In this document: positions 4,397-64,000 of the stretch, piece after piece | Numbering within the stretch: the stretch's first letter is position 1 | Layout: every line of letters begins with the position of its first letter | Virus record (IMG/VR): IMGVR_UViG_3300036864_000176 | Coordinates: 1 to 64,000 of that record | Origin: a virus | Reading direction: 5' to 3' (one strand) | Length of the DNA: 64,000 nt | Notes under the pieces: generated by a model | What the model was told of the DNA's origin: nothing | Database searches by the model: none | What the model saw: only the letters and a program-made list of their open reading frames with translations | Position numbers and translations under genes: made by a program

Positions 4397-4675
4397 CTAC
4401 CTGCCCATCACGACGGTCCCCGCGCCGGCGTACGGCACGTTGCACACGACGAGCGTCTGTGCGCCGTCCTGCTTGCAGATGGCCCAAGCGGTGAGGACGC
4501 CGGTCGTGGTGTCGAGCCGCCAGGCGATCGCCGGGATGCCGACACTCGGCACGGCGGCGGCGAGCTGGAAGCGCCCGCTGCCGGTGGCCTGCTGCGCGTC
4601 GAGCTTCGCCGCGGGGACCGTACTCCACGCCCAAAGCACCGCCGCGGCGGCGAGGACGATTCCCACGGTTCGCAT
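4397..4675 (-). CDS. Secreted or membrane-anchored hypothetical protein (92 aa)
   Basis: The start chosen is ATG 4675 (MRTVGIVLAAAAVLWAWSTV), giving a classical hydrophobic signal or anchor segment at residues 4-20. The remainder is beta-rich with two cysteines (AICKQ, VVCNV) that could form a disulphide outside the cytoplasm. A longer frame to 4987 overlaps a convincing zinc-ribbon gene and is rejected. Function unknown. Confidence 0.55.
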   Translation of the reverse strand: MRTVGIVLAAAAVLWAWSTVPAAKLDAQQATGSGRFQLAAAVPSVGIPAIAWRLDTTTGVLTAWAICKQDGAQTLVVCNVPYAGAGTVVMGR

Positions 4676-4683
4676 GACCACGG

Positions 4684-4905
4684 CTACTCCTCCTCCCAGT
4701 ACGGCTCGTCGAGGTCGCGGTAGTCGCCTTGCCCTTCGGCGCGATACCCGCAGGCATCGCGGTAGCCGCTGATGGCGCAGTCCCGGCACATCACGCCGGC
4801 ATACACGCCGTAGCTGTACTGCTCGTCGATATCCTGTTTCGCCTTGCCGCATCGAGGACACACGCCGCTGTCGAGCACGTCCCGCAGGTAATCGCCTCTC
4901 GCCAT
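4684..4905 (-). CDS. Small zinc-ribbon protein (73 aa)
   Basis: ATG 4905 follows a strong AGGAGAGGAG ribosome site. CPRCGK near residue 15 and CRDC near residue 39 form a C4 zinc site, and the tail is very acidic and aromatic (YRDLDEPYWEEE). It is the second gene after the HNH endonuclease at the head of the leftward block. No specific function. Confidence 0.65.
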   Translation of the reverse strand: MARGDYLRDVLDSGVCPRCGKAKQDIDEQYSYGVYAGVMCRDCAISGYRDACGYRAEGQGDYRDLDEPYWEEE

Positions 4906-4987
4906 GACCGCTCTCCTCTCCTGCTGCTGAGTTGTATACTTGGTATCCACTTCCGCCCCGTCGCCTGCGATCTGAATCACACACCAA

Positions 4988-5557
4988 TTACCCGAGATGC
5001 TTCCACGTCCGCCGGTGAACGATGTGATTGACGGTCGGGGCCGGCACCCCGAATCGTCGTGCGAGCTCCGCCTGCTTCACGCCGATCGCGGCCAGCTCGC
5101 GGATCGCCCGCACCTGGTCGTCGTCGAGCCGCGCCCGCCCGTTGCGGCTGCCTCGGGTCTTGCCCGCGGCCGCGGCATCGCGCATGTTGTCGAACGCACT
5201 GCCGGCGTAGAGGTGGGCCGGGTTGATGCACCGCCGCACGTCGCACCGATGGCATACCAGCGTGCCGGCCGGGATCGCGCCGGAGGTCAGCTCGTAGGCG
5301 AGCCGATGCGCGCGAGTCCAGCGGCCGCGCCAGGTGAACACCCCGTAACCGGACGGGCTGAGATGCCCGCGCCAGAGCCAGCACCCCGCCTTCGTCTTCC
5401 GCGCCAGCGCCCAGAACCGCGCGATCGTCTGCTCGGTCGTCTGGTCGCGGTCGTAGCCGCGCCAGCACTTCCACGAGCAGAAGCGCCGGCCGCGCTCGAG
5501 GTCACGGGGCCAAGCCAAGAACGACACGGCGCACCGCTCGCATGTCAACGACAGCAT
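4988..5557 (-). CDS. HNH endonuclease with zinc knuckle and C-terminal HTH
   Basis: The 189-residue protein starts with a CERC...CSWKC zinc site. It then shows the HNH_3-type core: CWLWRG...GYGVF, AHRLAYEL, LVCHRCDVRRCINPAHLYAG (the catalytic His and the Asn-Pro-x-His metal ligands). It ends in a helix-turn-helix of the resolvase-like type (DDDQVRAIRELAAIGVKQAELARRFGVPAPTV, shown only in part). This is the layout of a free-standing homing endonuclease. It is the first gene of the leftward accessory block, next to the divergent control region. Confidence 0.85.
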   Translation of the reverse strand: MLSLTCERCAVSFLAWPRDLERGRRFCSWKCWRGYDRDQTTEQTIARFWALARKTKAGCWLWRGHLSPSGYGVFTWRGRWTRAHRLAYELTSGAIPAGTLVCHRCDVRRCINPAHLYAGSAFDNMRDAAAAGKTRGSRNGRARLDDDQVRAIRELAAIGVKQAELARRFGVPAPTVNHIVHRRTWKHLG

Positions 5558-40676: not shown

Positions 40677-41366
40677 GTGGCGGGCTACAACTACCTCACC
40701 CAGATCCGCGACCGCGCAACCCGGGACACCCTCAAGGGCTTGACCGACCGGGTGAACGCACTCGAACGATCTGCCGACACGATCGGCACCGTCACCGAAC
40801 CGCTCACCGACGATCTCAACGCCGGTAGTCACCGTCTCACGCGCGTCGCGCCGCCGACGGCCGACACCGACGCGGTCACCCTCCGCTTTCTCAAGAGCTA
40901 TGTCGACGCCCGCCTCTCGGCCGCGGGCCTGATCGATGCGGCCGGGAACGCCGTGCGTCCGACGGACACCGACAGTGGCCAGACCGCGGCGGGCGTCGCA
41001 GCCGCCGGGGCCGACGGACACCCGACTGTCTCCGGACTCACCGCCTACAACGCCGGCCTCATCATCGGCGGGGTCGGGCATGAGTTCCCGGCGCTGGTCG
41101 CCCCCGCCGTCGACGAAGCGACGTTCGATGCGAACCGGCTCGAGCTGCTGCGCCGCACGATCTGGCACCTGATTCAATTCGGCTTCACCGCCGGACGCCA
41201 GCAGAACCCGACCGGGATCCTCTCGACCGACAAGATCGCGCTCATCGAAGACGGGCAGCTGCGCGCGTTCGACTGCTACACCGGCACGTTCACGGCGGGC
41301 CTCACGGTTCAGGCGCTGCAGGTCTATCCGGCGGTCCTGGTAGCCGACAGCGGGATCGCGGACTAG
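40677..41366 (+). CDS. Tail fibre adaptor with coiled-coil N-terminus (229 aa)
   Basis: GTG 40677 encodes AGYNYLTQIRDRATRDTLKG followed by LTDRVNALERSA, a short trimeric coiled coil typical of fibre roots. The repeated motif NAGSHRLTRVAPPTADTDAV is a fibre-shaft signature (the N.G..I.N...P....DAV pattern). The C-terminal domain is globular. It probably attaches the spike to the tail. Confidence 0.6.
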   Translation: MAGYNYLTQIRDRATRDTLKGLTDRVNALERSADTIGTVTEPLTDDLNAGSHRLTRVAPPTADTDAVTLRFLKSYVDARLSAAGLIDAAGNAVRPTDTDSGQTAAGVAAAGADGHPTVSGLTAYNAGLIIGGVGHEFPALVAPAVDEATFDANRLELLRRTIWHLIQFGFTAGRQQNPTGILSTDKIALIEDGQLRAFDCYTGTFTAGLTVQALQVYPAVLVADSGIAD

Positions 41367-53117: not shown

Positions 53118-56100
53118 TCACCCTAGTTGTACCGCCAGATCGTCGATGTCGTCGCGCTCATCGATCTCATCCGGCATATAGAAGGGCTCATGCTGCGTTG
53201 GAGGCTGAGCAGGCGTCATCGGCGGGATCGCGTAGTCGGTCATCGCGCCCCACGTCTTGCCGACTTTGACAGCGACGTCAACACGCAGGTACGGGCCAAT
53301 GTTCAATTCAGGTGGACACGGCTGCCGCAACTCCTCACGCCGCATGACCTCGACTACCGTTTCGATCACTCGATCGCACACCTGATTGGGAACTTCCAGT
53401 AACAGGCTGTCGTGAATCGGCGCACGAAACGGGGTCTTGCCGTAGTACACGTCTCCGATCCAGCTTTCTGAGTCCGGGTGGAAGAGATCGAGCTGCGCCT
53501 CCTTCAACCGACCAGCAGCGATCGATTGCGGGTAAAAGGCAATCGCCCGTTTCGCATCTTCGCCGAGCTGTAATCGGTACAGCCGTCCACCCGAGAGTAC
53601 GATGCCTTTCGGCCGCCCGTGCTCGTCAAGCTGGCCGCGCTTCGTGGCCCATAAAACACTCTTCCGGTACTCCATCTGGTTCAACGGCTTCAGCGAGAGA
53701 ATCGACCAGAACCAGTGTCGAGCCGAAAAAACGTGGTACTTCCCGCTCTGCGTCAACTGGTAGTAGTCATCGACCCACGGACCACCGAGATAGCCGTGCT
53801 CATGGGCCAGATCGCGCACGCGCTGATGGAACGCCTTTAGCTTCGGCGCAACGCCGTAGTAGAGATCCTGCACCTGCTGCGCGTCTTTGAGCGTCGGATA
53901 CACGTCGGGGAACGTCTCGACCATGCCATAGGTCGACATCCCGTACGCGTTCGCGTGCACACACCGTTTGGCGACGTTGTAGGCCGCCGGTTCGTGCTGC
54001 TTGATCTCTTTGAAGTAGGCTGCGAGATCCGCATCGGACCACGACAGTGAGGCTGGTCGGTTCAGCAGGTGACTCGCGAGAAACGCATGGATCCCGAGAT
54101 AGGCCAGCCGCACATAGTCACCGTCGCCCATCATCCAGCCCGTCTCGACCGCCTCGATACCAACGTAGTCGGCTTCGATCAACATGCAGCCAGGACTGGC
54201 TTCGATGCAGTCACGGAAGCCAGAGGCCAGTGAGTGTGGCCCACCACGATCGTGGTACACGTTCTGGATGTTCGGGTTCACCGATGAGTCGCGGAGGGTC
54301 GAAGGCCGAAACGTGATGAAGGGATGGAGACGTTCGTCAGCCCAGATGCGCTTCTGCGTGCCGACGACATAGGTCGAGTCGATTTTTTTAATCGCTTTGT
54401 ACTCGAGTAACTGCTGATAGATCGGGTTCTTCGTCTTCTTCAGTAGCCGCTGCAGTGTTTCCTTATTGCCGGTCGGCCGCTTGCTCTTCTTCGCCAGACC
54501 GGGCTGCTCACCACTGTCCTGGATCAGTCGGAGAATCTGCTGGCTCGCATCGGGGTTGAAGGGCAATTTCCAAAACCAGCGGGGCTCTCGTCGCTGCTCT
54601 AGCACGACCTCCGGCTTCGGTGGGAGACCGTCCGTGAACAGCGACGGCTCGATCAGATACTTCGGGCAGCGGTGGCGCGGACCGACATTCTCTTTTTTCC
54701 CGCACGTCCGACACACCCGGACGGTGCTCACGACGTCGCGTGCGACCAGCTCAATCCGCTCGGTGAGATACGCGGTCTTTGCCGAGTCACCGTTCTTGCC
54801 GAACAACCCGGCCGGAGGACCGCCTTCTGGTTTCTCACGATACCCGTCCTTCGGCTTCAGCGTGCCGAGCGCCGTCGAGTCTCCGAGCTGCGCCAGGCGT
54901 GTCGTCGCTTCTGCCTGCAGACGCTGGTGAAAGGCATTCAGCCGCTCGGTGTTGACGCGCAGTCCGACCTCATGCGCCGGTCGCAGCACGATCTTCTCCC
55001 GCTCGTGCGTATGCCGGTAGAACGCCTCCCAGAGTCCGGCCTGCAGCAGATCTTTCACGACACCGTGACCACAGCGGAGAGTGTGGACGCCGTCGAGGGC
55101 GGCGTACTCAGCCTCACGGCCTTTCACCTTGGCCAAGTGCTTCCATGCCGCACAGACCGAGTAGAGCGGCGCCACGAAACCGAGACCCAACGGCAAGTCA
55201 CTCTGCAGATGATGAAAAGCCCAGGCGACGTCCCAGATGTCGGTTCCGATGACCTTGTGCCCCGCCAAGCGGAGCCGTGGTTCGTCGTAACTTTTAAACC
55301 AACACAACACCGTCCCGGCTGCTGCCAGCAGGTCGTCGATGATCTTGCGGTACGGCTCCTCGTACGGGACGGTGACACCCTCATCGGAACGGTAGGCAAA
55401 ATTCACGCGCAGGATCTGCGTCGAGGTGTCGGACGGTGTCAACTCTCCTTCGTCGCGACCGACTTTATCGGCGGTCTCAATATCGACGGCTAACCAGACC
55501 GCATCCGGGTTTCGTTGGAGCTCCTGCAAGTACGTTGACGCCCAGAACTGGAAGGCGAGCGGGCTCGGATCGAGGTGGAGCGTCGGCGGCACGGGAAGCT
55601 GCCAGCCAATCTCGGCAGCCTGCTTCGCCCGCGTGAGATCAAATCGAACGACGTCCGTGAGGTTCGCCGCGCCGCGCTGTATATGGGAGGGATGGTACGT
55701 CGGCACAATCAGGCGGCCTGCGGCCGGACCGTACTCGATGCGCTGCACGGTGCCATGAAAGTTCTGCAGATTGATTCCGTCCGCACCCCAGAGATCCAAG
55801 ACCTGCCGCAGCGCGACCGCGCCCAACGTCACGATCACCCGATGCGGCTCCTGCAGCAGCGGGTCTCGATACTGCCCACACTGACTGATCGCCGAGTGCT
55901 GCCAGGGCGCCCCGTCGAGCCAATCACCGGGTGGCTCACAAGAGACGACGTTGCCAATGCGGATTGTCTCGCGGGAGAGGCCAGACCGCGTGCAGAGGCG
56001 CGACAACATACTGCCGGCCGGACCAGAGAACGGAGCACCAGTCAGGACTTCGACGTGACCAGCCGCTTCTCCGATCAGCAGAATGGGCGACGTTGGTGGA

Positions 56101-56186
56101 CCGGAGGGTGGGACGAAGCCCCAACCTCTCAGTTCAAGTGTGCAGCCCGAACAACCAGCGGGTTTCCGTCGGCTAGGTAAAGGCAC
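53118..56186 (-). CDS. Family A DNA polymerase fused to an Fe-S UDG-like domain
   Basis: From GTG 56186 the protein has 1,022 residues. Residues 12-200: family 4 UDG-like, with CSGC, VVSCEPPG and ISQCGQ cysteines (a 4Fe-4S set), GEAAGHVEVLTGAPFSGPAG and YHPSHIQRG. Residues about 230-400: 3'-5' exonuclease-like with LAVDIETADK. A zinc-knuckle insertion (CRTCGKKE...RHRC) follows. Palm/fingers: motif A IEADYVGIEA, motif B AKRCVHANAYGMSTYG, motif C PIHDSLLLE. Motif C has HDS where the family has HDE, and motif A lacks the Ser-Gln of DYSQIELR. The upstream HNH gene abuts, overlapping by 14 bp, so the true N-terminus may have been lost. It replicates the phage genome. Confidence 0.8.
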   Translation of the reverse strand: MPLPSRRKPAGCSGCTLELRGWGFVPPSGPPTSPILLIGEAAGHVEVLTGAPFSGPAGSMLSRLCTRSGLSRETIRIGNVVSCEPPGDWLDGAPWQHSAISQCGQYRDPLLQEPHRVIVTLGAVALRQVLDLWGADGINLQNFHGTVQRIEYGPAAGRLIVPTYHPSHIQRGAANLTDVVRFDLTRAKQAAEIGWQLPVPPTLHLDPSPLAFQFWASTYLQELQRNPDAVWLAVDIETADKVGRDEGELTPSDTSTQILRVNFAYRSDEGVTVPYEEPYRKIIDDLLAAAGTVLCWFKSYDEPRLRLAGHKVIGTDIWDVAWAFHHLQSDLPLGLGFVAPLYSVCAAWKHLAKVKGREAEYAALDGVHTLRCGHGVVKDLLQAGLWEAFYRHTHEREKIVLRPAHEVGLRVNTERLNAFHQRLQAEATTRLAQLGDSTALGTLKPKDGYREKPEGGPPAGLFGKNGDSAKTAYLTERIELVARDVVSTVRVCRTCGKKENVGPRHRCPKYLIEPSLFTDGLPPKPEVVLEQRREPRWFWKLPFNPDASQQILRLIQDSGEQPGLAKKSKRPTGNKETLQRLLKKTKNPIYQQLLEYKAIKKIDSTYVVGTQKRIWADERLHPFITFRPSTLRDSSVNPNIQNVYHDRGGPHSLASGFRDCIEASPGCMLIEADYVGIEAVETGWMMGDGDYVRLAYLGIHAFLASHLLNRPASLSWSDADLAAYFKEIKQHEPAAYNVAKRCVHANAYGMSTYGMVETFPDVYPTLKDAQQVQDLYYGVAPKLKAFHQRVRDLAHEHGYLGGPWVDDYYQLTQSGKYHVFSARHWFWSILSLKPLNQMEYRKSVLWATKRGQLDEHGRPKGIVLSGGRLYRLQLGEDAKRAIAFYPQSIAAGRLKEAQLDLFHPDSESWIGDVYYGKTPFRAPIHDSLLLEVPNQVCDRVIETVVEVMRREELRQPCPPELNIGPYLRVDVAVKVGKTWGAMTDYAIPPMTPAQPPTQHEPFYMPDEIDERDDIDDLAVQLG

Positions 56187-56775
56187 GAACGATGTTCTCG
56201 TGCTTGAGACGCCAGCGTGCGAGCGCGTACGACTGCATCTGACAGGAGGGCGAGCAGGTTTTCGTCTTCGGGTAGTTGACGGGGACGGTGTACTCCCCTC
56301 CACAAACTGTGCAGGTCCGCGTCTGCCTCGCGGCGCCGGCGTAATGCGTCCGGGTCAGCTCCCGACTGCGACAGGCAGCACAGACACCACGACTTTGGTG
56401 GGGATCGTCCCTTCCGCAAATGCGGCAAAGCTGTCGATGCAGACGATGCAAGCTCGTATGCCGATCCCGAGGAACGATCTCCAGATTCGCCAGATCGTTG
56501 TTGAGTTTGTTTCCGTCCTTGTGATGAACGCACTCATCGACAGCAAGTAGGCGCCCGATCTGCTGCTCAACGATGTACCGATGCTCCAGCACATCTCGCC
56601 CGTTCACACGTCGCCAGCGGTACTCCTTGTTGATCCAGGATTGTGTATCTGTGTGAGCGCCAAACGGGCGATCGAACGGCACCCCATCGTATTGCCGCTG
56701 CCAGTGAAAACGACAGAAGCCCTTCGCCCAATGCCTGCGACCGCACTCAGAAACACTACAGATCCGGTCAGCCAT
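56173..56775 (-). CDS. HNH endonuclease upstream of the polymerase
   Basis: ATG 56775 follows GGGAG. An N-terminal C/H knuckle (CSVSECGRRHWAKGFCRFHW) is followed by the HNH core: LEHRYIVEQQIGRLLAVDEC, VHHKDGNKLNNDLANLEIVP, HTSLHRLH. A C-terminal zinc site (CRICGRDD...CAAC, then CTVCGGEY) completes it. It runs into the 5' end of the polymerase gene. Confidence 0.85.
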   Translation of the reverse strand: MADRICSVSECGRRHWAKGFCRFHWQRQYDGVPFDRPFGAHTDTQSWINKEYRWRRVNGRDVLEHRYIVEQQIGRLLAVDECVHHKDGNKLNNDLANLEIVPRDRHTSLHRLHRQLCRICGRDDPHQSRGVCAACRSRELTRTHYAGAARQTRTCTVCGGEYTVPVNYPKTKTCSPSCQMQSYALARWRLKHENIVRAFT

Positions 56776-56785
56776 TTTCATCTCC

Positions 56786-57401: not shown

Positions 57402-57682
57402 CACCAATCCTCGTCTGGCACCCGGCGCTGCACGTCGATGATCGTGCCGCGCAGCTCGGCGTAGCAGTACATCTTCGGCACGGTCTGGTAGTCGCCTTCG
57501 AACAGCGGCCGCAACTCCTTGATCATCGGCCCCTGGTAGAAGATCGCCTGGTCCTGGCTGTAGATCAGCACTTCGGTGTCGGCCGGCGGGTTGAGGTTGC
57601 GCTGGACCTTGACGATGCCGCGCCAGACCAGGCGGCCATGAATCGGACCGGAGCCGTTTCGGCGGGCTGCGATTTCAGGCAT
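57401..57682 (-). CDS. Hypothetical protein (93 aa)
   Basis: ATG 57682 overlaps the HNH stop (TGATG). A beta-rich protein with ADTEVLIYSQDQAIFYQGPM and GTIIDVQRRVPDEDW, similar in style to small phage OB- or SH3-like proteins. No family. Confidence 0.5.
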   Translation of the reverse strand: MPEIAARRNGSGPIHGRLVWRGIVKVQRNLNPPADTEVLIYSQDQAIFYQGPMIKELRPLFEGDYQTVPKMYCYAELRGTIIDVQRRVPDEDW

Positions 57683-58215
57683 CACTTTGTCCGTGCTGCG
57701 CGCTGTGCGGCGCGTCGTCGCCGTAGATACTTAAGTGCCCGCGCCGCGCCAGCGACTGGATCAGCCTGATATTTCTTTCTCGCCCACTCCCGACCTTGAT
57801 CACGGGCGCACACGCGACAGAAGCGCCAGCCCTTCGACTTTCCTTTCCACTCGGGCATCGGATCGAGCGGATGACCGCGTTTACAGGTGTCCTTCCGCGC
57901 ATTCTGAGCAGGGACGCTCACCCCACGCAGCGCGTTGATCTTGTGCGTCACCGGCTCCAGATGTTTCGGATTACAGCAAGCGGGCGTCCGGCAGAGGTGA
58001 TCGAGCTCCAGCCCCTCGGGCACCGGCCCGTTGATCGCTTCCCAGAGCAGGACGTGGACGTACTGGGCGCGGCCGTCCAATCGAAACGAGCCGTAGCCGC
58101 CGCTGAAGTGGCCACCGTTCCAGATCCAGCAACCACGTTCGTTGAGCGACAACTTGCCGAGATCGACGAATCGCATCGCGTCGACCGATGAGCGGAGCAC
58201 GCGCTCTACGCCCAT
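57682..58215 (-). CDS. HNH_3 homing endonuclease next to the helicase
   Basis: AAGGTG precedes ATG 58215, which lies inside the end of the helicase gene. Core motifs: CWIWNGGHFSGGYGSF, VHVLLWEAINGPVPEGLELD, HLCRTPACCNPKHLEPV, then a CKRGH...CRVC zinc site and a basic C-terminus. A further member of the HNH_3 group. Confidence 0.85.
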   Translation of the reverse strand: MGVERVLRSSVDAMRFVDLGKLSLNERGCWIWNGGHFSGGYGSFRLDGRAQYVHVLLWEAINGPVPEGLELDHLCRTPACCNPKHLEPVTHKINALRGVSVPAQNARKDTCKRGHPLDPMPEWKGKSKGWRFCRVCARDQGREWARKKYQADPVAGAARALKYLRRRRAAQRAARTK

Positions 58216-59489
58216 TGCATCACCTTCGGATGAGTGACGATCCGGGATTCAAATTGCTTGACCTGTCCGACGAGCCGCAGTCCGTCAGGTGTACGGCACC
58301 GCGACATCGCGACGTAGAGCATGAAGGGCGACGTGAAGAACTGCGAGTGGAAAATAACCTGCACCTGATCCAAAGAAAGACTCTGGGATTTATGTACGGT
58401 CGAGGCCCACCCCAAACGCAGTGGCAGGTAGGTGATCGATCCTTCGACGGCCTGCCGCGGCATCTTCACGCCTTTGTTCCCGGTCGCTGATCCCTTCTCA
58501 CGGGTAACCGATTCGACGTTCACTTCCTGCCCGGTCCGCAGCAGCTTCACTCGCGCGGTCCGCTCACTCACGCGGCCGACGTACGTCCCGAGGTCGCCAT
58601 TGCAGTAGATCAACGGAGCAGGAGGATCAGAGGGGTCATCCTTCGGATAGCGGCGGTTGGCGAGGATCATCACCAACGCGCCGGGCTTCAACTCCAAACG
58701 ATCAGGGATTTGTTTCAGCCATTCGCTCGCCTGCTTCCCGTCCCGCTTCGCGTCGTAGAAGTCCGACTTCGCGATCAGTTGCAGCAGCCGCAGCTTGTTG
58801 TGCCGGTCCACTTCGTCGTTCTTCGCAAACAGCGTCGTGCCGTTGAAATTCGATTCCTGCACCGGCTGGATGCGGGAGCCGAAATAGTCGAGCGCCAGTT
58901 TCCGGTCGCCACGACGTACTGCATGAAGAGCAGTGATGAAATCCGGGTTGGTCTGTCGCCACTGCTTCCGCAAGACAATCGTGTTGTGCTGGAAGCGATC
59001 CCAACAGGGCGATTCAAAGGCGTACGGTGCGTTCACTGGGCCAAGTTGCAGGAAATCGCCAACCACGGTCAGCCCGAGTGTCGGCCGGTCATGCTCGACG
59101 TACCACTGATTCAGATCCTCGATGGCCGTCACAAGGATGGTGATCTGCTCGGCCGGGCACATGGAAATTTCGTCGCAGACAATCCGGGTGTAGCCCGATT
59201 CGACCAGCCGCTTGAGGAACACACTCAACCGCCCGACTTCGTACGACGAGCGGAGGTCTTCGGTCGAGTAGTACATCAAGAGGGAATTGATCGTGACTGC
59301 ACCGGCGCTGAGGTTCACGGCGCTGATCCCCGTGGTCGTGCAGAGCACGGCGTCGTCGTAGTTCTCGGCCCGTTCCCGAATGAGATGGGTTTTCCCGGAG
59401 CCTGCGACGCCGGTGAGGAATTGGAACACCGGTTCGGTCTCCGGCGTCAGAACGACGACCGGTTCGTCAGCGACGGCGGTCTCAGACAT
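58206..59489 (-). CDS. SF1B (PIF1/RecD-like) DNA helicase
   Basis: A 427-residue helicase: Walker A FLTGVAGSGKTHLIRE (residue about 28), motif Ia-like LCTTTGISAVNL, Walker B RIVCDEISM, motif III VVGDFLQLGP. Motif IV is near VLRKQWRQ, and motifs V/VI read GWASTVHKSQSLSLDQV and LYVAMSRCRTPDGL. This matches Pif1/RecD2/Dda-type 5'-3' helicases. AAGGAGAG precedes the ATG. It likely drives replication fork or recombination together with the polymerase, SSB-like protein and Sak4-like ATPase. Confidence 0.9.
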   Translation of the reverse strand: MSETAVADEPVVVLTPETEPVFQFLTGVAGSGKTHLIRERAENYDDAVLCTTTGISAVNLSAGAVTINSLLMYYSTEDLRSSYEVGRLSVFLKRLVESGYTRIVCDEISMCPAEQITILVTAIEDLNQWYVEHDRPTLGLTVVGDFLQLGPVNAPYAFESPCWDRFQHNTIVLRKQWRQTNPDFITALHAVRRGDRKLALDYFGSRIQPVQESNFNGTTLFAKNDEVDRHNKLRLLQLIAKSDFYDAKRDGKQASEWLKQIPDRLELKPGALVMILANRRYPKDDPSDPPAPLIYCNGDLGTYVGRVSERTARVKLLRTGQEVNVESVTREKGSATGNKGVKMPRQAVEGSITYLPLRLGWASTVHKSQSLSLDQVQVIFHSQFFTSPFMLYVAMSRCRTPDGLRLVGQVKQFESRIVTHPKVMQWA

Positions 59490-59510: not shown

Positions 59511-59729
59511 TCACGGCAGTTGCGCGCGAACGGCGGCGTCCTTGGCTTCGAGCAGCTTCCGAAGTGCCACGGTGCGCTCGGCGCCCGGCTTGACGTAGAG
59601 GGCGGTCCACTCGGCGAGTTCACAGTACTGCCGGCTGGTGTCCTGCAGCTCGCCTTCGGGTAGGTGCGCGTACTGAAAGAATTTCATCAGCCGCTTGGTC
59701 GGTTCGTCTAGCGTGGCCGGTTCGTCCAT
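59511..59729 (-). CDS. Acb2/Tad1 hairpin-domain-like protein (72 aa)
   Basis: ATG 59729 is 6 nt after AGAGGTG; a GTG at 59738 is the alternative. The sequence has MKFFQYAHLPEGELQDTSRQ, then CELAEWTALYVKPGAERTVA, then LRKLLEAKDAAVRA. I recognise this as the short helical hairpin family annotated Acb2/Tad1 in phages (F.Y.HLP..LQ...P.G.ERT.ALRKLLEAKDA). Acb2 hexamers sequester CBASS cyclic nucleotides; Tad1 binds Thoeris signals. The family call is from memory, and ligand binding here is untested. Confidence 0.6.
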   Translation of the reverse strand: MDEPATLDEPTKRLMKFFQYAHLPEGELQDTSRQYCELAEWTALYVKPGAERTVALRKLLEAKDAAVRAQLP

Positions 59730-59730
59730 C

Positions 59731-59991
59731 TCAGGCACCTCTCAGTTTGCAGACCACCGCTCTCGGGCCTTTGGCTGTTGACGTGACGAGAAACGAGACC
59801 GGCGTGCCCTGCTCCAGCCGTGACCACGTGTCACCCTCGCAACAACTCATGTGCAGGAACGCTTCAATGCCCGTCTCATCACCACGAACGAAGGCAAAGC
59901 CCCGGTCAGTGACGATCCGGATGACCGTCCCGTCGTGCCATTCTTCAGCGGGGGCGGAAGCCGCTGCATTGTCGCGCGCGTCGTTCCTCAC
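59731..59991 (-). CDS. Cold-shock domain protein
   Basis: The 86-residue protein has an OB-fold cold-shock domain: DGTVIRIVTDRGFAFVRGDE (RNP1-like GFAFV) and EAFLHMSCCEG (RNP2-like FLHMS). It ends with VSFLVTSTAKGPRAVVCKL. Such proteins bind single-stranded RNA/DNA and act as chaperones or antiterminators. The stop lies just before the Acb2-like start, and the start overlaps the preceding stop. Confidence 0.8.
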   Translation of the reverse strand: MRNDARDNAAASAPAEEWHDGTVIRIVTDRGFAFVRGDETGIEAFLHMSCCEGDTWSRLEQGTPVSFLVTSTAKGPRAVVCKLRGA

Positions 59992-61321: not shown

Positions 61322-61612
61322 TCACTCGCGTGCTTGCTGCGTCTCGCGCTCGATCTCCGCGACGATCCGCAGCAGATCATCCGGCTCGATTACCGAAGCG
61401 GCCGTCTCGTTCGCCCTGAGCAGCACCCGTTTCACGTTCGCGCCGAACGCGACCAGGCGCTCATCGCCGGGGTCGTCGCGTTCGACGGTTGTGGCCAGTT
61501 CCAGACCGTGCCGCAGGTGCCGCAACCTGATAAGGGTCGCCCCTTCATCGAGCGCCTCCTGCCGCGCCAGGACGAGCGCCCGCCGACTGCTCGCGCTGAA
61601 CCGTTCAAACAT
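61322..61612 (-). CDS. Stand-alone ClpC N-domain-like protein (96 aa)
   Basis: The N-terminus MFERFSASSRRALVLARQEA matches the start of the ClpC/ClpA N-domain (MFERFT...ARRVL.LAQEEA). RLRHLRHGL follows where ClpC has GTEHLLLGL, and VAFGANVKRVLLRANE parallels the LGADLNRVRQQV helix. There is no AAA+ module: the protein is only one Clp_N repeat plus a helix. As a decoy or adaptor it could bind the host Clp chaperone or its adaptors. That role is inference. Confidence 0.7.
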   Translation of the reverse strand: MFERFSASSRRALVLARQEALDEGATLIRLRHLRHGLELATTVERDDPGDERLVAFGANVKRVLLRANETAASVIEPDDLLRIVAEIERETQQARE

Positions 61613-61616
61613 CGGC

Positions 61617-62384
61617 CTAGAACGGAATCGGATCGTCCGCGAGCATCGCCGGGGTCGGCTTCAGGAATTTCTCGATTTGAAAGAAGCCTCTCAGCTTCGC
61701 CGAGCACTTCGGGCAGTAGGCGATGTCCGAGTACCCGCCGCGTTGACCATTCTGGGCGGGGAGCTTGAACGCTGACGTGTAGAGCCGGTGCCCGCAGCCA
61801 TGCTGTCCACTCGGATCCTGAATCGACGCAACGAGCGTCGGATCGTTCGTATCGTGGATGTAGCGCACTTTCTCCGGGTTGCAGAACGCCGACAGGCCGT
61901 GCTCGACCCGGAAGATTTTCCCGCCGAACTGCATCAGCGCATGGACCCACTCCGTGTTCTTCGAGAGTGGCCCCTTGTACTGGAGCGACTCCCGGAGCAG
62001 GTACGCGAGGTCGCTGACCAGCACGCGCGGCTCGCCTTTCCGTGCCCGGTTGCGGGGCTGGTTGGAGATCGACGTCGTCACCGGCGCGCCGTCATCTTCA
62101 CTCCCGACGACGAGCAGCGGGTTGTCCTTGTCGAACCGGACGCGCAGGCGCTGGATGACGCGCGCCTTGTTCGGATCGGCCGGGTCCGGGACCGGGTTGC
62201 CCTGCTCGTCTTTCAGGATTTCGTCGTACGCCTCGATCAGGCTCGGCACATCGGACGGGAGCCTGAAGATGTGCGTACCCGGGAGCAGGGTCGGGAGACC
62301 TTGGCCCCCCATTTGAATCGGAAGTTCGGATGGTGTTTCCTCGATCACGTCGTCACGAATCGCGAGGTCGTTGATGCTGCTCAT
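61617..62384 (-). CDS. Single-strand-binding-like protein with zinc site (255 aa)
   Basis: ATG 62384 follows AAAGGAGAG. The extreme C-terminus DDPIPF is the acidic-tip hallmark of SSB proteins that recruit partners. The core has mixed beta segments (RVIQRLRVRFDKDNPLLVVG) and a zinc site (HGCGHRLY...YCPKCSAKL), unlike bacterial SSB. Position beside the Sak4-like ATPase fits a recombination/replication ssDNA-binding protein. Core homology was not established. Confidence 0.55.
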   Translation of the reverse strand: MSSINDLAIRDDVIEETPSELPIQMGGQGLPTLLPGTHIFRLPSDVPSLIEAYDEILKDEQGNPVPDPADPNKARVIQRLRVRFDKDNPLLVVGSEDDGAPVTTSISNQPRNRARKGEPRVLVSDLAYLLRESLQYKGPLSKNTEWVHALMQFGGKIFRVEHGLSAFCNPEKVRYIHDTNDPTLVASIQDPSGQHGCGHRLYTSAFKLPAQNGQRGGYSDIAYCPKCSAKLRGFFQIEKFLKPTPAMLADDPIPF

Positions 62385-62848
62385 ACGGTTCTCTCCTTTG
62401 TCGCTCTCCGTAGGTGTTTGTGCTGGTGCCAGTAGAAACGGCCACACGCACGGCAGCCACGACTGCCGTCCTGCCGCCGCGTCGTATTTGCCGTGTCGAA
62501 CGGGTGCCCGTGGATGCAGGCAGTCTTCACTGCGTTCAGCGCAGAGACGCTGATCCCACGAAGCCGATTCACCCGTCCGGTGACAAGCTCAAGGTGTGTC
62601 GGGTTGATGCAGTGCCGGACACGGCACAGATGATCCGGCTCCAGTCCAGGAGGAATCGGACCGATGAAGAACTCGTACGCCAACCGGTGAGCACGCCATA
62701 TCTTCGACACAGGTACCCGCTGCGTGATCGTGCCGTAGCCTTTCGGCGTCAGGTACCCGGTGAACAACCAGCAGCCGTTGCTGTCCTGTTCGATCTTCTC
62801 CATGAGCCGATCGAACAGCGGTGTGTTCTCGATGCCCTTGATGCCCAC
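62381..62848 (-). CDS. HNH_3 homing endonuclease next to the SSB-like gene
   Basis: GTG 62848 overlaps the stop of the upstream Sak4-like gene; the stop overlaps the SSB-like start (ATGA). Motifs CWLFTGYLTPKGYGTI, AHRLAYEFFIGPIPPGLEPD, HLCRVRHCINPTHLELVTGR, then CIHGH...CRACGR. Close in layout to the members at 12767 and 57682, suggesting spread within the genome. Confidence 0.85.
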   Translation of the reverse strand: MGIKGIENTPLFDRLMEKIEQDSNGCWLFTGYLTPKGYGTITQRVPVSKIWRAHRLAYEFFIGPIPPGLEPDHLCRVRHCINPTHLELVTGRVNRLRGISVSALNAVKTACIHGHPFDTANTTRRQDGSRGCRACGRFYWHQHKHLRRATKERTV

Positions 62849-64000
62849 TACTTCGCCTCCGTTGCACTCGGGATCGGCGGACGCGTGGCACGGCGTGACG
62901 AGACCGCGCGTGTCGGGGGTGGCGTGGCAGGTGCCGCCGCAGCGGATGATGCGGTGGGTGCAGGTGCCGTGGGTGGCGTGGGTGGCGCTTCTTCTGTCTT
63001 CGGTGGCGGGACCAAGTGGAGATTGGCCTGCGCGGCCGCGGGCGAGACAGCGGGCTCAGCACCGGCGGGTAGCGGGGACGCAAGCACGGTCTGTTGAACG
63101 GGCGCGGCTGGTGGCGTAGGCGGCATCGGTGGCCGTGGCACACCTGCGGCCGGTGGCGGGGCAGCCTGCCCGACCGGCACCATGCCTGCCACCGGCATCG
63201 GCAGCGGCCGCGCCGGACCGGCGGCAACGCCCACTGAAGCCGGCGTCCGGGTCAGCACGTCCTCTTGGCCATCGTCCGTGAACGGCTTGAGCGCGGGCGC
63301 ATCGCGGTACTGCTCCCCGGCGCGCGCCAACGATCGCTTGAGCGCTTCGTCCATCCGGCGGAAGAAGAACTTCAGCGAGCAGGTCGTAAACGGCGGCTCA
63401 CCTTCCTTGTCTTCGAGATACGCCGGGAAGTCACCCGGCTCGCCTCTGGTCTTCGCCAGATGCGGAATGTTGCCCTCATTCGGATGCGCGTGCGTCTCCA
63501 GCCAGATCCGGTGCTTCATCGTCCCCGATGCAGTGGGGACTTTGCCGAGATTCAGGCAGTTGCCGAGCATCGATGGCAGTTCCGCGGTCTTCGCCGTGCC
63601 GGCGATCTTCGGGCCGAAGACGACGATGTTCGCGTCGTCGCTGCCACGGTTCTCCAGGAAGGTCGCAATCGGTGGGACGACCTGATAGGGGATGCGCCGC
63701 ATGTTGGCGAGCCACGATGCGACCCGGTTCTGGGCGAAGCCGTAGTGCGGCATCGAGTTGCTGCCGAACATCATCGAGCCGGAGACAATCTTCGACGGCG
63801 CTCCCCGCAGGGCGTTGCGGTCGCCGCCGCCCATCTCGTCACGCGCCGACTTCTCGGCCATGTCGATCATGATCCAGTCCGACATCGCCGTGACCGAATC
63901 GAAGATGTAGAGCCCGACGTGCTTGAAACCGGGCGAGCGGACGACTTCCTTCTCGGCCTTGCTCCAGTTCTGCATGGTGACGAGCGTGCGGCACTCCGGA
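62848..64000 (-). CDS. Sak4-like/AAA_24 ATPase (5' end cut by window)
   Basis: The frame stays open to the window end; PECRTLVT precedes the first Met, so the Walker A region lies outside. VGLYIFDSVTAMSDWIMIDM is a RecA-type Walker B strand. Further core motifs: SGSMMFGSNSMPHYG, ANIVVFGPKIAGTAKTAELP. After about residue 230 the protein becomes Pro/Ala-rich and basic. These features match phage nucleotide-binding proteins of the Sak4 (RecA-like single-strand annealing) group. It should act in recombination with the SSB-like protein. Confidence 0.7.
   Translation of the reverse strand, partial: PECRTLVTMQNWSKAEKEVVRSPGFKHVGLYIFDSVTAMSDWIMIDMAEKSARDEMGGGDRNALRGAPSKIVSGSMMFGSNSMPHYGFAQNRVASWLANMRRIPYQVVPPIATFLENRGSDDANIVVFGPKIAGTAKTAELPSMLGNCLNLGKVPTASGTMKHRIWLETHAHPNEGNIPHLAKTRGEPGDFPAYLEDKEGEPPFTTCSLKFFFRRMDEALKRSLARAGEQYRDAPALKPFTDDGQEDVLTRTPASVGVAAGPARPLPMPVAGMVPVGQAAPPPAAGVPRPPMPPTPPAAPVQQTVLASPLPAGAEPAVSPAAAQANLHLVPPPKTEEAPPTPPTAPAPTASSAAAAPATPPPTRAVSSRRATRPPIPSATEAK

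Follow-up and report, generated by a model that had tools for sequence, protein, structure and literature searches.

The window analysed here is the whole 64,000-nucleotide stretch of DNA, taken from a 68.5-kb virus contig (positions 1 to 64,000 of IMG/VR record IMGVR_UViG_3300036864_000176). Our interest is in a reverse-strand gene of 72 codons, which starts with ATG (59727-59729) and stops with TGA (59511-59513). Its product is MDEPATLDEPTKRLMKFFQYAHLPEGELQDTSRQYCELAEWTALYVKPGAERTVALRKLLEAKDAAVRAQLP. Note that an alternative GTG start, three codons upstream, would extend this protein to 75 amino acids. We consider the gene to be real because only one base separates it from the stop codon of the cold-shock gene upstream, a Shine-Dalgarno-like stretch (GAGAGGTG) precedes the ATG, and the product is conserved in phages and in IMG/VR. 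The surrounding features are listed in Table 1. The block yielded no promoter of the sigma-70 type, a negative that carries no information, as the host may use another consensus. Three HNH_3 endonuclease genes in the same, presumably early, block are probably independent mobile insertions. A sequence-only reading of this DNA had placed the gene in an early leftward block with a cold-shock protein and a Clp mimic. The first of these is borne out by a Pfam match. The second has the visual resemblance that suggested the name but its product matches nothing in Pfam or PHROGs.

Table 1. Features of the window discussed in the text (positions in the window; strand and basis where available).
Feature	Position	Strand	Basis
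72-aa protein, probable sister family of Acb2/Tad1 hairpin proteins (phrog_1761/phrog_5120)	59511..59729	-	ORF, PHROGs, AlphaFold2, profile link
C-terminal helix, ~residues 50-72, core E51-R-T-V-A-L-R-K-L-L-E-A-K-D-A-A-V-R68	59514..59582	-	HHalign, conservation
F-x-Y-x-H-L-P motif, residues 18-24	59658..59678	-	conservation; segment aligned at low confidence
Cold-shock-domain gene, upstream neighbour	59731..59991	-	PF00313 E 1e-8
Dda-like helicase gene, downstream neighbour	58206..59489	-	phrog_325 E 8.3e-47
Sak4-like gene, same block	62848-63975		weak match
Family-A DNA polymerase, 1061 aa, N-terminal uracil-DNA-glycosylase-superfamily domain	53118-56303	-	PF03167 E 2e-18, PF00476 E 7e-24
Three HNH_3 endonuclease genes, one early block	56173-56781, 57682-58215, 62381-62848	-	
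96-aa protein starting MFERFSASSRRALVLARQEALDEGATLIRLRHLRHGL	61322-61612	-	resembles half of ClpC/ClpA N-terminal domain, by eye
tRNA-Leu (GAG anticodon), single copy in window	40764-40847	-	

The 72-residue protein belongs to phrog_1761 (E 4.7e-19) and phrog_5120 (E 8.6e-14), both labelled 'unknown function'. The family is widespread. A tblastn search of one phage collection (cut-off E<=1e-5) returned 232 phage records that carry it. Carriers include Vibrio, Acinetobacter, Gordonia, Brevibacterium and Mycobacterium phages, as well as Erwinia jumbo phages, and the annotation is nearly always 'hypothetical'. Jumbo phages of 265 kb also carry it. Pattern scans recovered the family from at least 586 stretches in IMG/VR and from 193 stretches of bacterial genome contigs. 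Near-invariant positions are F18, H22, L23, S32, A39, L56, L59, E61, K63, D64, V67 and R68, where conservation of one stretch is inflated because some retrieval patterns contained LRKLLE[AS]KD. H22, S32, K63, D64 and R68 are conserved at 88-100%, also in ten phage sequences obtained by tblastn without any pattern. No function is given for the family in the copies of Pfam, NCBIfam, PHROGs and PADLOC that we searched.

The sequence-only reading had put the protein forward as a candidate for the Acb2/Tad1 hairpin family, pointing to two short patterns. Both are present, as F18-Q-Y20-A-H22-L23-P24 followed by L28-Q29, and as P48-G-A-E51-R-T-V-A-L-R-K-L-L-E-A-K-D-A65. The Pfam domain for these proteins is PF24729 (Acb2_Tad1_hairpin), which has a gathering cut-off of 27 bits. 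Our query did not match it, nor did any of the 53 relatives that we aligned first, and a PF24729 scan of this genome found nothing. The best relative, L182, gave E 0.0038 and 17.8 bits, below the cut-off (T4 Vs.4 scored 71.4 bits in that scan), and three others (L011, L198 and L250) gave sub-threshold matches with E about 0.1. In a more diverse set, PF24729 was the commonest Pfam match, again sub-threshold, in 4 of 27 members. An Fn3-like Pfam match (E 0.039, under the cut-off, in a single member) was dismissed as chance. Searches of Pfam, NCBIfam, PADLOC and PDB sequences, with the query or first alignment, returned nothing relevant. By Pfam's own cut-off, the family is outside PF24729.

Comparison of profiles gave a clearer result. 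We built deep profiles for the family (152 non-redundant sequences) and for canonical Acb2 (67 sequences, with family members left out). HHalign linked the two with a probability of 90.7%, or 93.5% in reversed order, and E-values of 1.2e-6 to 2.2e-7; with a profile Neff of ~3, these statistics are rough. A separate tool, using smaller alignments, gave 89.8% (E 1.8e-6). As a yardstick, canonical Acb2 and T4 Vs.4, a proven pair, align at 64% in HHalign. The alignment between the family and Acb2 is collinear across 41-58 columns. An initial HHalign comparison with shallow profiles had given 21%. A later value of 98% was discarded, since the Acb2 profile, growing by iteration, had taken in 12 members of the family, and the clean rerun was used instead. 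Against the T4 Vs.4 branch alone, the family scored 1.6%, which is not significant, and that HHalign alignment serves only for placing residues of the last helix.

Short helical hairpins with much Ala, Leu, Glu and Lys might all look similar, so the likeness to Acb2/Tad1 could be convergent. The fold is indeed simple, and the Acb2 HMM scores the query itself at a low 6.6 bits. However, the controls argue otherwise. Of 150 column permutations, none reached the real score (maximum 19.0 versus 33.4), and the reversed profile had an HHalign probability of 0.2%. Among 29 other profiles from the same loci, the top score against the family was 14.1, obtained by the T4 Vs.4 cluster, compared with 33.4 for Acb2; the 28 unrelated ones were all far under Acb2. 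Similarly, at E<=10, the Acb2 HMM picked out 117 of the 172 family members, and the 688 decoys made by reversing or shuffling their sequences gave no match. Among ~25,000 other ORFs it matched 38, including several Vs.4 proteins. The collinearity of the alignment also speaks against convergence, which we regard as very improbable. One locus, L011, has two hairpin genes in tandem. Here, a divergent paralogue (4445-4942), with an Acb2-like ESYTWAMR, sits directly upstream of a typical member (4977-5204). This upstream paralogue (DKMIGWMDPNNAPED...ERQVALRKLLESYTWAMRISL) looks intermediate between the family and Acb2.

Structure prediction was consistent with these comparisons. The AlphaFold2 model of the query, made with the family alignment, has a mean pLDDT of 92.8 and contains helices only, in line with the earlier description of a 72-residue helical protein. 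A short helix (9-18) is followed by two antiparallel helices (27-45 and 50-69), joined by a 4-residue turn. Our control model, of canonical Acb2, has the same layout (helices 5-10, 22-41 and 46-69), and the Acb2 protomer has been described as the same short helix with an antiparallel hairpin (PMC12043709). Searched against the viral structure library BFVD, the query model retrieved its own family first. Six named Acb2/Tad1 hairpin proteins followed among the best 50 matches, at E-values that are weak (1.2-3.5). The control retrieved 8 of the query's top ten (E 0.006-0.5, probabilities 0.87-1.00), and its matches interleaved the query's family with named Acb2/Tad1 proteins. In a Foldseek search of the PDB, the query model returned only unrelated helical hairpins, as convergence might lead one to expect. 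Yet, among the matches listed, control Acb2 retrieved only Tad1, and weakly (7uav, Z 5.0). Hence, the missing PDB match for the query carries no information.

We conclude that the family is very probably homologous to the Acb2/Tad1 hairpin superfamily. Because the profile comparisons, the sub-threshold PF24729 matches of relatives, and the reciprocal structure searches all point to the same tie, it is best read as a sister branch, within a superfamily wider than PF24729. The original family assignment therefore stands at superfamily level, and fails at the PF24729 cut-off.

We turned our attention to the residues that define function in T4 Vs.4, a cGAMP sponge proven by structure and genetics. 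Vs.4 contacts cGAMP with Y8, H11, K23, R79 and F82, and its hexamer relies on L29, A66, A73 and A77 (PMC10097602). We placed Vs.4 on the family directly for the last helix, and through canonical Acb2 for the remainder; the pairings of K23, Y8, H11 and F82 were made partly by eye and the N-terminal mapping is of low confidence. In the last helix, HHalign of the two profiles aligns the Vs.4 segment A66-R79, so that A66, A73 and A77 correspond to A55, A62 and A66, with small residues kept. Vs.4 R79 corresponds to R68, an arginine that is 88-100% conserved in the family and absent from canonical Acb2. One turn ahead of this position, K63 and D64 are new near-invariants. Towards the N-terminus, Vs.4 H11 pairs with H22 (98-100% conserved), and Y8 with Y20, a position where about 90% of members have an aromatic residue, the F-Y-H motif being aligned at low posterior confidence. 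Spacing of the Tyr and His also varies: it is Y-x-H in the family, Y-H in canonical Acb2 and Y-x-x-H in Vs.4.

The remaining two contacts are changed. Basic K23 of Vs.4, an Arg in canonical Acb2, is replaced by S32 (98-100% Ser), and the stacking F82 becomes L71, a position that is aliphatic across the family. A lack of ligand-pocket residues would, by the sequence-only reading, have told against its call; the outcome is mixed, with three of five Vs.4 contacts (Y8, H11, R79) retained and two (K23 and F82) lost to Ser and Leu. Since K23 has given way to a near-invariant Ser, and F82 to an aliphatic residue, cGAMP binding of the Vs.4 type is not predicted. Judged from sequence, cGAMP bound in the Vs.4 manner is an unlikely ligand. 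A kept framework, with a uniformly changed pocket, is how a change of ligand would be expected to look; protein binding could also explain it.

This second explanation deserves attention. A repurposed member of the superfamily might use the conserved surface (H22, S32, K63, D64 and R68) to bind a host or phage protein, for instance a nucleotide-cyclase, a TIR protein or a replication factor, and not a small signal. Loss of the pocket Lys/Arg at S32 would suit such a role, as would the focusing of conservation in the unusually rigid LRKLLEAKDAAVR helix. So too would the N-terminal extension of some members: in L001 (4725-5189) and L014 (4734-5180), the family domain is preceded by a segment (MGNFKIEIEAVGGHG...) that by itself matches nothing in Pfam or PHROGs, an arrangement that looks, from sequence, like the 'extra domain plus hairpin' layout of Tad1. 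Conversely, the retained positions (A55, A62, A66 and R68) are the ones from which Vs.4 builds its pocket and its oligomer, which ligand binding fits better, and the gene has no constant protein partner beside it. On balance, we think repurposing unlikely.

Gene neighbourhoods also bear on function. Our comparison covered about 25 loci in viruses and 28 on bacterial contigs, with genes called by a simple longest-ORF rule. Neighbours vary, and include HNH endonucleases, Sak4, exonuclease, terminase, replication initiation, helicase, integrase and holin/endolysin genes; most are replication/early or packaging genes. No fixed partner recurs across these loci, which fits a stand-alone accessory gene, as opposed to a subunit of one machine. 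In Brevibacterium phage AGM4 (L250, 1989-2234), the family gene has two adjacent annotated 51-bp repeats in the conserved helix-coding stretch, and copy number may therefore differ among sister phages. The frequent replication genes, both elsewhere and here (cold-shock and Dda-like helicase genes on either side, with Sak4-like and DNA polymerase genes in the block), could mean that the protein is a replication or repair accessory, helping the Dda-like helicase, an ssDNA annealing protein or the polymerase, with no part in counter-defence. However, no single partner recurs, and family genes also occur beside terminase, integrase and holin/endolysin genes and in the 265-kb jumbo phages. Moreover, homology to the sponge superfamily is the sole functional link that we found. 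We regard an accessory role of this kind as quite improbable.

Taken as a member of the Acb2/Tad1 superfamily, the 72-residue protein would be, by analogy and with reasonable likelihood, a sponge, oligomeric and of altered specificity, that takes up a nucleotide immune signal. The small all-helical protein would share a common ancestor with Acb2/Tad1 hairpin proteins. Protomers may pair along the alanine-rich side of the last helix, to build a hexamer-like ring. Held between protomers, a nucleotide immune signal could stack against Y20, the N-terminal aromatic, and be touched by H22 and R68; S32, K63 and D64 would stand in for the canonical Lys/Arg contact. If free signal is soaked up in this way during infection, the host effector (of CBASS, Thoeris or a related system) would stay off. 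The anti-CBASS or anti-Thoeris activity proposed at the outset is thus plausible.

A bolder form of the sponge reading, possible though doubtful, extends it to the whole of phrog_1761/phrog_5120, carried by phages of many bacterial phyla, jumbo phages among them. The family might then be an unrecognised branch of immune-signal sponges. The Lys/Arg-to-Ser switch, along with the invariant Lys-Asp pair, would retune the pocket to a signal unbound by known Acb2/Tad1 proteins, and possibly to one not yet discovered.

The gene is a common phage 'hypothetical', and the tie to Acb2/Tad1 offers all members a testable role together. The conserved pocket change predicts a ligand other than cGAMP, and a family protein could act as bait for fishing out the host signal. 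A survey by Tal is said to name sponge families 'Sequestin' and 'Lockin', and our family might be identical with one of these. We found no description of our family in the literature covered, with the surveys of Hadary (bioRxiv 2025) and Tal (Science 2026), as cited in PMC13232231, lying outside that scope; the link between phrog_1761/phrog_5120 and Acb2/Tad1 is new here, unless these surveys already cover it.

Among known sponges, Acb4 and Tad2 are also small phage proteins, and theirs is a demonstrated ability to trap immune nucleotides. However, Acb4 is an alpha/beta protein, tetrameric and with a three-stranded beta core (PMC11722364), and Tad2, also tetrameric, contains beta strands (PMC12043709), whereas our model has no strands. 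Tad1 has a C-terminal helical hairpin in the same named Pfam domain as Acb2, and was retrieved by the control Acb2 model. Even so, the query, at 72 amino acids and predicted to be all-helical, is without Tad1's N-terminal beta-sheet domain. With Acb2 (canonical PF24729 and T4 Vs.4), differences are the Ser32 that replaces Vs.4 K23 or the canonical Arg, the scores under Pfam's cut-off, and an end that reads K-D-A-A-V-R-A where canonical Acb2 has W-A-N-A-x-I-A-R. Shared with Acb2 are size, the short N-terminal helix with its antiparallel hairpin, the F-x-Y/H start, the LA and E-R/K-S/T-x-A-L/I-x-x-L-x-E-A core, the small hexamer-contact residues and, with Vs.4, the arginine at R79/R68.
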